Source: Oscillospiraceae bacterium
GTDB lineage: Bacteria > Bacillota > Clostridia > Oscillospirales > SIG530
Direction of reading: 5' to 3'
NCBI GenBank assembly: GCA_015067075.1
Contig: SVND01000007.1
Span: 1-34,745 of the forward strand
DNA: 34,745 nucleotides
The position numbers were made by a program, and so were the translations under genes. Positions 1,511-34,745 of the stretch are shown in pieces; within the stretch, counting starts at the first letter, position 1; the number at the start of each line of letters is the position of its first letter. The notes under the pieces are model-generated. The model was not told the DNA's origin. It did not search any database and saw only the letters and a list, made by a program, of their open reading frames with translations.

Positions 1511-4141
1511 TTACTTGCTTGCTTTGATAGCAGCCTGTGCTGCGGCAAGTCTTGCAACGGGTACACGGAACGGTGAGCAAGATACATAGTCGAGGCCGAT
1601 CTTGTGGCAGAATTCAACGGAAACGGGGTCGCCGCCGTGCTCGCCGCAGATACCGCAATGGATCTTGTCGTTTACGCCCTTACCGAGCTTGATCGTCATT
1701 TCCATAAGCTTACCAACGCCTGTCTGGTCAAGCTTTGCAAACGGATCGTTTTCATAAATCTTCTTCTCATAGTATGCGCCAAGGAACTTGCCTGCGTCAT
1801 CTCTGGAGAAGCCGAACGTCATCTGTGTAAGGTCGTTTGTACCGAAGCAGAAGAAGTCAGCTTCCTTTGCAAGCTCGTCTGCTGTGAGGCAAGCTCTGGG
1901 AATTTCGATCATTGTACCGACTTCGTATTCGAGAGCGATGCCTGCTGCTGCGATTTCAGCGTCAGCTGTAGCAACGACGATATCCTTAACGAACTTGAGC
2001 TCCTTAAGCTCGCCTGTAAGAGGAATCATAATTTCGGGCTTTACCTTCCAATCGGCATGAGCCTTCTGAACCTTGATTGCAGCTCTGATAACAGCCTTTG
2101 TCTGCATTGCGGCGATTTCAGGATACGTTACTGCAAGACGGCATCCTCTGTGTCCCATCATGGGGTTGAACTCATGGAGAGAAGCGATGATAGCCTTGAT
2201 GTCTTCAACAGACTTGCCCTGTGCCTTTGCCAAAGCGGCGATGTCATCTTCTTCAGTGGGAACGAACTCATGAAGAGGAGGATCAAGGAATCTGATAGTT
2301 ACGGGGTTGCCTTCAAGAGCTTCGTAAAGCTTTTCAAAGTCGCCCTGCTGATAAGGAAGTATCTTTTCAAGAGCAGCTTCTCTTTCTTCAACTGTGTCAG
2401 CGCAGATCATTTCTCTGAATGCCGCGATTCTATCAGTCTCGAAGAACATATGCTCTGTACGGCAAAGTCCGATACCCTCTGCACCAAGCTCAACAGCCTT
2501 TGCAGCGTCAGCAGGTGTGTCAGCGTTTGTTCTTACCTTAAGTGTTCTGTATTTGTCAGCCCAATCCATGATAGTCTTGAATTCGCCGACTATTTCAGCA
2601 TCAACTGTGGGGATGATGCCATCGTAAATGTTACCTGTAGAACCGTCGATGGAGATGTAATCGCCTTCAACGTATGTCTTACCTGCAAGGGTAAACTTCT
2701 TGTTATCTTCATCCATGTTGATGTCGCCGCAACCGGATACACAGCAAGTACCCATACCGCGAGCAACAACAGCAGCGTGAGACGTCATACCGCCGCGAAC
2801 TGTGAGGATACCCTGAGAAGCCTTCATACCTGTGATATCTTCGGGAGATGTCTCAAGTCTGACAAGGATAACCTTCTCGCCTCTTGCGTTCCAAGCTTCA
2901 GCATCTTCAGCTGTGAATACTACCTTACCGCAAGCAGCACCGGGAGATGCTCCGAGACCCTTACCTGCAGGTGTTGCAGCTTTGAGAGCCTTTGCGTCAA
3001 ACTGCGGGTGAAGAAGTGTGTCAAGGTTTCTCGGGTCGATCATTTCGACAGCGCGCTTTTCGTCGATCATGCCCTCTGCAACGAGGTCGCAAGCGATCTT
3101 AAGAGCAGCCTTAGCCGTTCTCTTACCGTTTCTTGTCTGAAGCATATAGAGCTTGCCGTCTTCAACGGTAAATTCCATATCCTGCATATCTCTGTAGTGA
3201 TTTTCAAGTCTTGCGCAAACATCGTTGAACTGCTTGAAAGCTTCGGGGAACTTTTCAGCCATTTCAGCGATAGGCATCGGTGTTCTTACGCCTGCAACAA
3301 CGTCTTCACCCTGTGCATTTGTAAGGAATTCACCCATAAGGCCCTTTTCGCCTGTTGCGGGGTCACGGGTAAATGCAACGCCTGTTCCGCAGTTGTCACC
3401 CATATTACCGAAAGCCATCATCTGTACGTTAACAGCTGTGCCCCAGGAATAAGGGATATCGTTGTCTCTTCTATATACGTTTGCTCTGGGGTTGTCCCAA
3501 GAACGGAAAACAGCTTCAACAGCGCCCATAAGCTGCTGCTTCGGATCGGAGGGGAAATCCTTGCCGATCTTTGCCTTGTATTCAGCCTTGAACTGACCTG
3601 CAAGTGTCTTAAGGTCTTCAGCTGTAAGGTCAACGTCCTGTGTAACGCCCTTTTCAGCCTTCATCTTGTCGATAAGCTCCTCAAAGTACTTTTTGCCGAC
3701 TTCCATAACGACGTCGGAGTACATCTGGATAAATCTTCTGTAGCAGTCCCAAGCCCATCTGGGATTGCCGGATCTTTCGCTCATAACCTCAACGACCTCT
3801 TCGTTAAGACCAAGGTTGAGGATAGTGTCCATCATGCCGGGCATGGATGCGCGAGCACCGGAACGAACGGAAACAAGAAGGGGATTCTTAACGTCGCCGA
3901 ACTTCTTTCCGCAGATCTCTTCCATCTTTTCAAGATATTCATAAATTTCAGCTTCGATCTCGCTTGCGATCTTCTTACCGTCGTCATAGTATCTTGTGCA
4001 AGCTTCCGTTGTAATTGTGAAGCCTTGGGGAACGGGCATTCCCAAATTAGTCATTTCTGCAAGGTTTGCGCCCTTGCCGCCCAGCAGCTCTCTCATGCTG
4101 CCATTGCCTTCGCTGAAGAGATAAACATATTTCTTGCTCAT
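1511..4141 (-). CDS. ppdK: pyruvate, phosphate dikinase
   Basis: Interconverts pyruvate, ATP and phosphate with PEP, AMP and pyrophosphate in the cytoplasm; many Clostridia use it in PPi-linked glycolysis. The 876 residues are full length for the family. The N-terminal ATP-grasp part starts with GGKGANLAEM and includes VSVRSGARASMPGMMDT. The swivelling phosphohistidine domain has GGMTSHAAVVARGMG with the phosphorylated His at 455. The PEP/pyruvate TIM barrel shows GAEGIGLCRTEHMFF, GHRGCRLAVTYPE and the C-terminal CGICGEHGGDP with the catalytic Cys near 832. The ATG start has AGGAGG eight bases upstream. The gene has its own strong promoter and a terminator, so it forms a single-gene unit behind the purine operon. 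Confidence 0.98.
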   Translation of the reverse strand: MSKKYVYLFSEGNGSMRELLGGKGANLAEMTNLGMPVPQGFTITTEACTRYYDDGKKIASEIEAEIYEYLEKMEEICGKKFGDVKNPLLVSVRSGARASMPGMMDTILNLGLNEEVVEVMSERSGNPRWAWDCYRRFIQMYSDVVMEVGKKYFEELIDKMKAEKGVTQDVDLTAEDLKTLAGQFKAEYKAKIGKDFPSDPKQQLMGAVEAVFRSWDNPRANVYRRDNDIPYSWGTAVNVQMMAFGNMGDNCGTGVAFTRDPATGEKGLMGEFLTNAQGEDVVAGVRTPMPIAEMAEKFPEAFKQFNDVCARLENHYRDMQDMEFTVEDGKLYMLQTRNGKRTAKAALKIACDLVAEGMIDEKRAVEMIDPRNLDTLLHPQFDAKALKAATPAGKGLGASPGAACGKVVFTAEDAEAWNARGEKVILVRLETSPEDITGMKASQGILTVRGGMTSHAAVVARGMGTCCVSGCGDINMDEDNKKFTLAGKTYVEGDYISIDGSTGNIYDGIIPTVDAEIVGEFKTIMDWADKYRTLKVRTNADTPADAAKAVELGAEGIGLCRTEHMFFETDRIAAFREMICADTVEEREAALEKILPYQQGDFEKLYEALEGNPVTIRFLDPPLHEFVPTEEDDIAALAKAQGKSVEDIKAIIASLHEFNPMMGHRGCRLAVTYPEIAAMQTKAVIRAAIKVQKAHADWKVKPEIMIPLTGELKELKFVKDIVVATADAEIAAAGIALEYEVGTMIEIPRACLTADELAKEADFFCFGTNDLTQMTFGFSRDDAGKFLGAYYEKKIYENDPFAKLDQTGVGKLMEMTIKLGKGVNDKIHCGICGEHGGDPVSVEFCHKIGLDYVSCSPFRVPVARLAAAQAAIKASK

Positions 4142-32090: not shown

Positions 32091-32094
32091 GATT

Positions 32095-32128
32095 AAGACC
32101 ACCGAGCGATCGGTGGTCTTGTTTGTTT
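32095..32128. terminator. bidirectional terminator between rqcH and the dockerin gene
   Basis: A perfect 11-bp stem AAGACCACCGA/TCGGTGGTCTT with a four-base loop, GTTTGTTTAA on the plus side, and a moderately T-rich exit on the minus side. It separates two convergent genes. Confidence 0.88.
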
Positions 32129-32582
32129 AATTTGATGTAATGTTCTTTAATGCTGCTAAAATGTCATTAATATTAAATGATGCATTCTTATCAACATCAT
32201 TCAGCGCCGAGCGCTCATCACCGTTTGATACAGATTTAAGCAATCCCAGTACATCGTTGATGTTTATCTGAAGATCAAGGTTTATATCACCCGCTTTTAC
32301 TTGTACAATCGCATAAATCCCCTTATCCTCGGCGGTAAAGCTTATTTCATCGTTAGTTACAGTGGAGTCTACAAGCTTGTATGTGCCGGATTCGGTATCG
32401 ACCTTGTAAACAAAGGTAAGCTCAACGTCGTATTCATCGGGAATGTCAAGCACATATTCACCCGACTCCCCAATGCTATACGCCGCATTTTTTGTATCCT
32501 TCAGTACCGCCGTAATCTGTGCCGTTTCATCAGGTGTTGTGATGGACTCAACAGTCGGTGTCGGCGTGGGAACAGGTGTTGG
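32127..32582 (-). pseudogene. dockerin-bearing C-terminal tail, in frame after a TAA
   Basis: Directly after the TAA at 32583-32585, and in the same frame, 151 codons are open. They encode a Pro-Thr linker (PTPVPTPTPT, 32553-32582), about 85 residues of a beta-type module, and a type I-like dockerin (32127-32291). The dockerin has two calcium-loop repeats, DINLDLQININD and DVDKNASFNIND, with acidic or amide residues at loop positions 1, 3, 5, 9 and 12, each followed by a helix (VLGLLKSV, ILAALKNI). The tail has no ATG or ribosome binding site of its own; a GTG at 32453 lies inside the module. It is therefore the C-terminus of the upstream phosphoesterase, cut off by a nonsense codon or reached by readthrough. 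Confidence 0.8.
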
Positions 32583-34745
32583 TTATTCCTTTTCAAAATT
32601 CATCACAGGCAGATACTCGGTCTTGCCGGATGAAACGTTTTCGGCAGTATCCTCATAAAGCAGTGTGCCGTCCGAATTTTCGATCTTCAATGAAACGTCG
32701 TAAGATTTATATGATTTAATGGTGTCAAAATCGGGATAATCCGCCAAATTAAATCCGATTGCAAGCCGTCCCACTGTTTCAAAGGGGGTGACTTTTTGGG
32801 TCTTGTCGCCAATAGTCAGGGTGTAAACGAGTCCTTCTTCAAAAAGCGGTGCGCCGATATGCTGAGCAGACGTGTCTTTAACTTTCAGAAGCAGGATGGA
32901 AGCTGTCTTGCCGTTATAGTTTCTCTGCACCAGACCCCACATAAAAGGAGAGAGCTTATCGCCCGACTCAGGCTGTTCGCCTCCATCGTTATCATCATTA
33001 TCATCGTTATCATCGGGGGTAAGACCTTCGGGATGGGAGAAAACAAGCACTCCGTCTTTTTCGGAAATGGTGGAGAGCATAGAAATGTCAAAGCTGTCTC
33101 CAAGTGATTTTTTAAGTGCTTTTATTCCTTCAGTATCATCGTCGGTAGTGAAGCATGAAAGCGCTTTTGCAAGATCTGAAATGGAATCAATTGCAGTTAC
33201 GTGGCTATCTGTGAGAGCCTCTCCGCTATCGGTTTTGCAGTTTGAGTAGACCTTGATGGCTTTACCACCGCTAAAGGTCGAGAAAATATTATCACCCGTG
33301 CCATGAACGTATACGTTATATATAGTGGAATAGTTTGAGAAGCAAATGCAGTTAGTGAGCTTCAGAGAAATATCACAGTTTGCAATCACGGCTCCCTGTT
33401 TGATAGTTCTGAAGGGTTGTGTGCTCTCGGAAGACTCTATTGAGCCGCGAATAACCATATTGTAGATGGCACCGTAAACGTATGGGAACACTGAGGTTTG
33501 ACCTGTGGACTTGATGTTGACTGTAAGGGTATAGCCGCCGCCGTCGTAGTTACCGCCAAAGAAAAGCTTGCTGCCACCGCTTGCAGGAGTACCCGCATAT
33601 CCTTCAACACCCGACATATCAATATCCGCAGTCTGACGGAAATAAAGTCCCTTGCCATACATGTCAGATTCGGTCTCGGAAGCATTAAAGAGATCAGTCA
33701 GCGCTTTGAAGTCGGCTGCATTTTCAATAAGATAGGGGTTTTCAAGGCTTCCTTCACCCTTGAAAGGCGCTTTTGATTCGTTTTCAAAAGAGATATTAAT
33801 CTTGATGCTTTCCTTAACCTTGCCGTAGAATATTTCTACAACAGGATTTTCGGGGGTCAGTTTTCCAACGTTTGAAACGCCCCAACCCAAAACAACTTTT
33901 TTGGTGCCGTCCTTGAACGTTGCCTCAATTTCCATACCCTTGCCGTCAAACCACTCTCCCGGAGTGTAAACAGTCTTGTCGGGTGCTTTTTTTAAGGAGA
34001 TGGAAACCGCGTCTTCGCGATTTTCACTATAAGATGAAAGAAGATAGCAAGCGCGTGGGATGATCTTTCCTGTGGTCAGATTATAGCCCGTGTAGAGAAT
34101 GTAGTCATCATATACCGATACGATGTAGCCCTCGCTGCCCTCTGTTAGCGTGGTTGCTCCTTCGCTATTGTAGCTCATAGAGCCGGAGGCGGTATAGCTT
34201 CTGGGCTGACAGGTGGAGCTATTGTGGATCATGCGGGCAGCTGTACCGTTTTCATCCGAGAAATTCAGCATTTCGTAAAATGACAGATGTGTATGCCCCG
34301 TCATCAGAATAGCTTCCTTATATTCGGTAAGCAGTGCCTTGAAGCGCATGTTACCGGGGAACTTTTCATCAAGCATAATGGGGTCGGCGTATGCACCGTT
34401 GACACGGTCTCCGGGTCCGAAATTGCGCATCAGGGAGTGTTCGATAATAAAAATATTGGTGTTGGTGCCTGAATAACGGATAAGCAAGTCCTCCAGCCAA
34501 TCAAGCTGTTGAGCGGAGAAATTATCCTGAGTTGCTGTGAGATAATTGGGTTTCAATTCCTGAGCCATAAAAATGAAAAGATTGTCCTTGGCACCGTTCT
34601 CTCCCTTTTTAAGAATATGGAAATAGGGGGAGTTACCATAGGGGTGGATTTGATCATCTCCCTTGGTAGTAAGCATAAAGTAAGCATTTTCGGGGCAGTC
34701 GTGGTTACCCTTAGCCTCGTATATTTTTTCAATTGGAAAGCTGGA
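32583..34745 (-). CDS. secreted multidomain metallophosphoesterase, N-terminus beyond window
   Basis: The frame is open to the window edge (no start seen), giving at least 720 residues. Counting from the edge, a calcineurin-like phosphoesterase core shows KGNHD (12-16), IIEHS near 101-105 and TGHTH (149-153), the usual metal ligands. Then come an Ig-like domain (about 250-320, TPGEWFDGKGMEIEATFKDG), a GLUG-like beta-helix region (about 330-540, GSLENPYLIENAADFKALTD, GGNYDGGGYTLT), an Asp/Asn-rich linker ending near 594 (DDNDDNDDNDGG) and a beta-rich module ending NFEKE. The stop is TAA, and the same frame continues into a dockerin tail. A nucleotide, sugar-phosphate or lipid-phosphate substrate outside the cell is possible; the sequence does not tell which. 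Confidence 0.85.
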   Translation of the reverse strand, partial: SSFPIEKIYEAKGNHDCPENAYFMLTTKGDDQIHPYGNSPYFHILKKGENGAKDNLFIFMAQELKPNYLTATQDNFSAQQLDWLEDLLIRYSGTNTNIFIIEHSLMRNFGPGDRVNGAYADPIMLDEKFPGNMRFKALLTEYKEAILMTGHTHLSFYEMLNFSDENGTAARMIHNSSTCQPRSYTASGSMSYNSEGATTLTEGSEGYIVSVYDDYILYTGYNLTTGKIIPRACYLLSSYSENREDAVSISLKKAPDKTVYTPGEWFDGKGMEIEATFKDGTKKVVLGWGVSNVGKLTPENPVVEIFYGKVKESIKINISFENESKAPFKGEGSLENPYLIENAADFKALTDLFNASETESDMYGKGLYFRQTADIDMSGVEGYAGTPASGGSKLFFGGNYDGGGYTLTVNIKSTGQTSVFPYVYGAIYNMVIRGSIESSESTQPFRTIKQGAVIANCDISLKLTNCICFSNYSTIYNVYVHGTGDNIFSTFSGGKAIKVYSNCKTDSGEALTDSHVTAIDSISDLAKALSCFTTDDDTEGIKALKKSLGDSFDISMLSTISEKDGVLVFSHPEGLTPDDNDDNDDNDGGEQPESGDKLSPFMWGLVQRNYNGKTASILLLKVKDTSAQHIGAPLFEEGLVYTLTIGDKTQKVTPFETVGRLAIGFNLADYPDFDTIKSYKSYDVSLKIENSDGTLLYEDTAENVSSGKTEYLPVMNFEKE

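Follow-up and report, generated by a model that had tools for sequence, protein, structure and literature searches.

Type I dockerins, found on surface enzymes both within and outside cellulosomes (for example Xyn10B of C. thermocellum, PDB 1ohz/2ccl), are C-terminal domains with two F-hand calcium loops, in which the ligands are kept, and with a P/T linker upstream. Two further kinds of described system are relevant where such a domain lies behind a stop codon. In programmed or leaky readthrough in bacteria (PMC11126739), two forms are made from one gene, in which a stop is followed by an open frame; in the E. coli TAA reporters of that work, mean readthrough was 0.01–0.05% of the wild type. 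The other kind is that of nonsense-truncated bacterial genes, recent pseudogenes that lose a C-terminal module (for truncation mutations, see PMC9241588); these combine a single derived stop with an otherwise conserved frame and an undecayed tail. In the literature searched, no paper joined dockerins with readthrough, nor dockerins with a calcineurin-like phosphoesterase.

The stretch analysed here (the window) comprises 34,745 nucleotides of a draft genome, in 85 contigs, of a gut-type Oscillospiraceae bacterium, and holds a phosphoesterase gene that resembles all of these systems. Its dockerin shares the loops, ligands, position and linker of the type I domains, but belongs to a divergent subfamily, falls below Pfam detection on its own and is cut off by a stop. 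Like the readthrough genes it has a stop and then an open frame, although this stop is of the tightest kind and unconserved, and neither a stimulatory structure nor a suppressor tRNA was found. Finally, it has the single derived stop and undecayed tail of the nonsense-truncated genes, but differs from them in that the stop falls exactly in a linker, so that the catalytic part should stay functional. The feature is real and was rightly described in the original prediction, and its most likely cause is an ordinary one.

The interrupted frame and its tail

The minus-strand frame enters the window at 34745 and is translated as ...YLPVMNFEKE-stop-PTPVPTPTPTVESITT...DILAALKNITSN-stop, with exactly one internal stop, the tail ending in ...ILAALKNITSN before the second TAA (Table 1). 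The original prediction had the position of the first stop and the continuation of 151 open codons in the same frame right; of its span, 32127–34745, the frame and the stop stood, but the strand is minus and the gene runs past the end of the window, in a contig (C13) of 58,080 bases. Exactly at that end, inside the gene and 2.16 kb upstream of the TAA, lies a 10-N scaffold gap (G000:C13:34746-34755) with TCCA common to both flanks, which is what two contigs with overlapping ends would leave if Ns had been placed between them; the gap, and with it the shift of frame, is probably an artefact. Beyond the window, the protein begins with MKKFTAIFLAIMLLLTLFAC..., a lipoprotein signal (lipobox LTLFAC) followed by a PTP-rich linker. 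Since no terminator was found to separate the tail from the TAA, the mRNA is expected to extend over the tail.

Table 1. Coordinates of the phosphoesterase gene and its modules in the window
Feature	Position	Strand	Remarks
Calcineurin-like phosphoesterase with C-terminal modules, gene body	32583..34745 within the window	-	5' end past the 10-N gap, up to about C13:35480
In-frame TAA stop inside the linker	32583..32585	-	GAA in the relative SIG714
PTPVPTPTPT interdomain linker, directly 3' of the stop	32553..32582	-	Homologous to EPTPTPTPTPTP in SIG714
Beta-rich module, about 87 residues, without Pfam family	32292..32552	-	Also precedes the C53 and C33 dockerins
Dockerin, two F-hand repeats	32130..32291	-	Calcium loops 32253-32288 and 32163-32198
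Second in-frame stop TAA, the gene's original end	32127..32129	-	
Bidirectional terminator-like hairpin, 3' of the tail	32094..32121	.	

The tail is open in its own frame only: each of the remaining five is broken by 3 to 22 stops, and 20,000 base shuffles produced not one open version. It had been described as lacking both an internal stop and a start of its own; the first part holds, whereas a 108-aa frame, without a signal peptide, could start within it from a GTG at 32453. Two uninterrupted tails of the same genome, C53 (56% aa identity) and C33 (55%), are homologous to it, and their proteins end in the same beta-rich module and dockerin, without a stop. This module, common to three proteins of the genome, belongs to no Pfam family; the AlphaFold2 model of the tail reached a pLDDT of 88, and a PDB fold search with it returned no match at E<=0.001, the module included. 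One peptide of the tail reads NAAYSIGESGEYVLDIPDEYDVELTFVYK.

As a single sequence, the dockerin of the window gave no match to Pfam PF00404 even at E=1, while a profile of the genome's tails matched the solved type I dockerins of C. thermocellum (2ccl_B, E=1.3e-7; 1ohz_B, E=4.3e-7), and by this match the dockerin is a real one. The calcium ligands (positions 1, 3, 5, 9 and 12) are present in both loops, as D/N/D/N/D and D/D/N/N/D. Thus, the predicted succession of PTP linker, module and complete two-repeat dockerin behind the stop, with intact ligands, was borne out. The canonical dockerin motif has Gly at loop position 6; the Leu found there in repeat 1 and the IN at positions 10–11 of both repeats depart from it.

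At least a dozen further dockerins are encoded in the genome, together with four cohesins that pass the Pfam cut-off (one within a 194-residue lipoprotein), so that a docking system exists as judged from its genes, the binding of a cohesin by the dockerin of the window being putative. That lipoprotein (L113, G000:C31:29873-30232) contains little beyond its one cohesin and might serve dockerin proteins as a minimal receptor on the surface. In this genome, dockerins are mostly N-terminal, right after the signal peptide (L103, L104, L105, L106, L107, L108, L109, L110), C-terminal ones being few (the window, C33, C53, C51 and C56).

Homologues and the ancestral codon

Among the genomes searched, both the genus and the family are represented by this one alone, and the homologues compared come from the order and the class. 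The closest one found (SVUF01000023.1, L022) belongs to an Oscillospiraceae MAG, SIG714, and has a body of 84% aa identity. Codon-by-codon alignment sets FEKE-TAA-PTPVPTP in the window against FEKE-GAA-PTPTPTP in SIG714, where the linker is unbroken and the homologous PTP stretch leads to a C-terminal TM anchor with a basic end, without a dockerin. No clear homologue of the window tail was found in SIG714 (best E 0.145), which makes a comparison of tails impossible at this locus. Among more distant homologues, four have uninterrupted dockerin ends (G185, G224, G154:C1 and G246:C64) and three have TM-KKK anchors (G276, G289 and G303); none of these seven has a stop at the junction with the end module. 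A scan of viral contigs for a relative found none. A C-terminal attachment module is thus usual in the family, and dockerin and TM ends are interchangeable.

Since SIG714 has GAA at the exact codon together with a homologous linker, and the distant homologues are uninterrupted, the stop is derived, and lies within an ancestral linker. Conservation of the TAA, for which an alignment of homologues had been proposed, was therefore not found. The simplest ancestral codon is most likely GAA, one base (a G-to-T transversion) from TAA; the C-to-T change in a CAA codon that had been put forward is possible, but receives no support here, the GAA of SIG714 making G-to-T the better fit.

The phosphoesterase body, whose homologue in SIG714 matches Pfam Metallophos (E=2.2e-9), differs from the latter by a dN of 0.089 and a dS of 0.96, which points to strong constraint. 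The homologous phosphoesterases (L022:4365-7403 and L023) differ at both ends, SIG714 having an ordinary signal peptide and a TM anchor, and the window protein a lipoprotein signal and a dockerin, with exchanges at PTP linkers. Given the N-terminal lipoprotein signal, the stop-shortened product is predicted to be lipid-anchored, not free. This weakens the proposed pair of a free secreted enzyme and a scaffold-bound form, as the signal and the PTP linker should keep even the shortened protein at the surface of the cell.

Such variation in attachment, namely dockerin or TM-KKK at one end and lipoprotein N-terminus or ordinary signal peptide at the other, could also be taken to mean that the stop was itself selected, the shedding of the dockerin being an adaptive change in which lipid anchoring replaced docking to a scaffold, in parallel with the dockerin/TM swap of the homologues. 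Nevertheless, this explanation draws on one genome and is regarded as the most improbable of those considered.

State of the tail and the case for readthrough

On the tail, the dN branch was 0.124 (bootstrap 0.064–0.191; 134 shared codons), and those of the sister tails were 0.220 and 0.231. As far as these branches indicate, the tail is thus without decay, relaxation or acceleration and has the shortest dN branch of the three same-genome tails, although the lack of acceleration may simply mean that the stop is too young to show it. In a neutral simulation, the probability that no stop arises and the ligands are kept was 0.25 at 0.05, 0.07 at 0.1 and 0.03 at 0.13 substitutions per site. Therefore, should the tail be neutral at present, the stop is young; on the assumption of neutrality ever since the stop arose, its age is put below about 0.13 substitutions per site. 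An intact tail leaves three options, namely a very young stop, a stop absent from the organism, or a tail still under selection.

The last of these would be met by programmed UAA readthrough, giving a minor dockerin-bearing form beside the major truncated lipoprotein form. The intact 151-codon tail with its calcium ligands is equally expected from selection for such a product, which speaks against a nonsense mutation; moreover, the base after the stop is C, and the four cohesins of the genome could bind dockerins. On the other side stand the lack of conservation in the homologues (GAA in SIG714, no junction stop in the others) and the low leakiness of UAA, which in E. coli is the tightest of the stops (PMC11126739). 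No stimulatory RNA structure was found 3' of the stop, the RNA there folding no better than its shuffles (z=0.21). None of the 38 tRNA genes found reads UAA or has the anticodon TTA, CTA or TCA, and a UAA-suppressor tRNA was consequently rejected; with a genome 96% complete, one could be missing.

Furthermore, no second stop before a PTP linker (stop-PTPxPTP) was found in the genome, this site being alone, and in the remaining dockerin frames found in it no stop precedes the dockerin. Elsewhere in the order, 22 occurrences of the pattern with a true stop were listed, and all seven inspected lay in short alternative frames that run across longer open ones. The readthrough envisaged by the original prediction has therefore nothing in its favour beyond the intact tail, with conservation, stop identity, RNA fold, tRNAs and pattern against it, and it is considered improbable. 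The fuller proposal, in which low-level readthrough would yield a minor dockerin-tagged, lipid-anchored phosphoesterase, selection keeping the tail, so that the enzyme would have two built-in destinations, is rated slightly lower still. Readthrough here would make the gene an example, rare in bacteria, of protein targeting controlled by a stop codon, towards which the evidence does not point.

Nonsense mutation or consensus error

As the readthrough tests gave no support, a nonsense mutation or an error was left, and in this respect the suggestion of a recent nonsense change or a base-call error is well supported, the stop being derived and the tail unrelaxed. The preferred explanation, given a probability of roughly 0.62 (a judgement and not a computed value, as is the standing of the error reading below), is that a nonsense mutation, GAA to TAA being the likeliest change, recently arose in the linker of this surface enzyme. 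It would account for what sequence comparison establishes, namely a derived stop and a tail homologous to uninterrupted dockerin tails, with no sign of decay. The ancestral gene would have encoded an enzyme anchored as a lipoprotein and ending in the beta-rich module and the dockerin; a one-base change from GAA to TAA in the linker would then have left, as the present product, the same enzyme minus its last 151 residues. The loss of the dockerin may have been tolerated because the N-terminal lipid anchor would still hold the enzyme at the surface.

That the TAA is truly present in the organism is itself inferred. It could instead be a base-call or consensus error of the draft, or the variant of a minor strain that entered the consensus, the true gene being unbroken. 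The 85-contig draft state fits with this, as does the gap in the same gene, whose TCCA flanks point to a broken k-mer path or to low coverage; this gap calls for caution about the TAA, assembly having been difficult nearby. In addition, the tail looks fully functional by its dN branch of 0.124, and a single transversion separates the codon from that of the relative. Yet no other broken frame was seen among the window's predicted genes, so that the error rate of the contig looks low, which speaks for a real mutation. Single-base consensus errors are, besides, usually rarer in draft genomes than real pseudogenes. An error is accordingly held to be possible but on the whole unlikely.

If the change is a recent nonsense mutation only, the locus would be a small example of surface enzymes changing their mode of attachment, within a family of phosphoesterases attached by dockerins, by TM anchors or through a lipoprotein N-terminus, their ends being swapped at PTP linkers. 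The family contains a second nonsense-type lesion, located elsewhere: in a homologous phosphoesterase of another genome of the order (L091, G154:C42), an in-frame TAG at 3241-3243 on the minus strand lies inside the catalytic domain, the frame being open on both sides of it.
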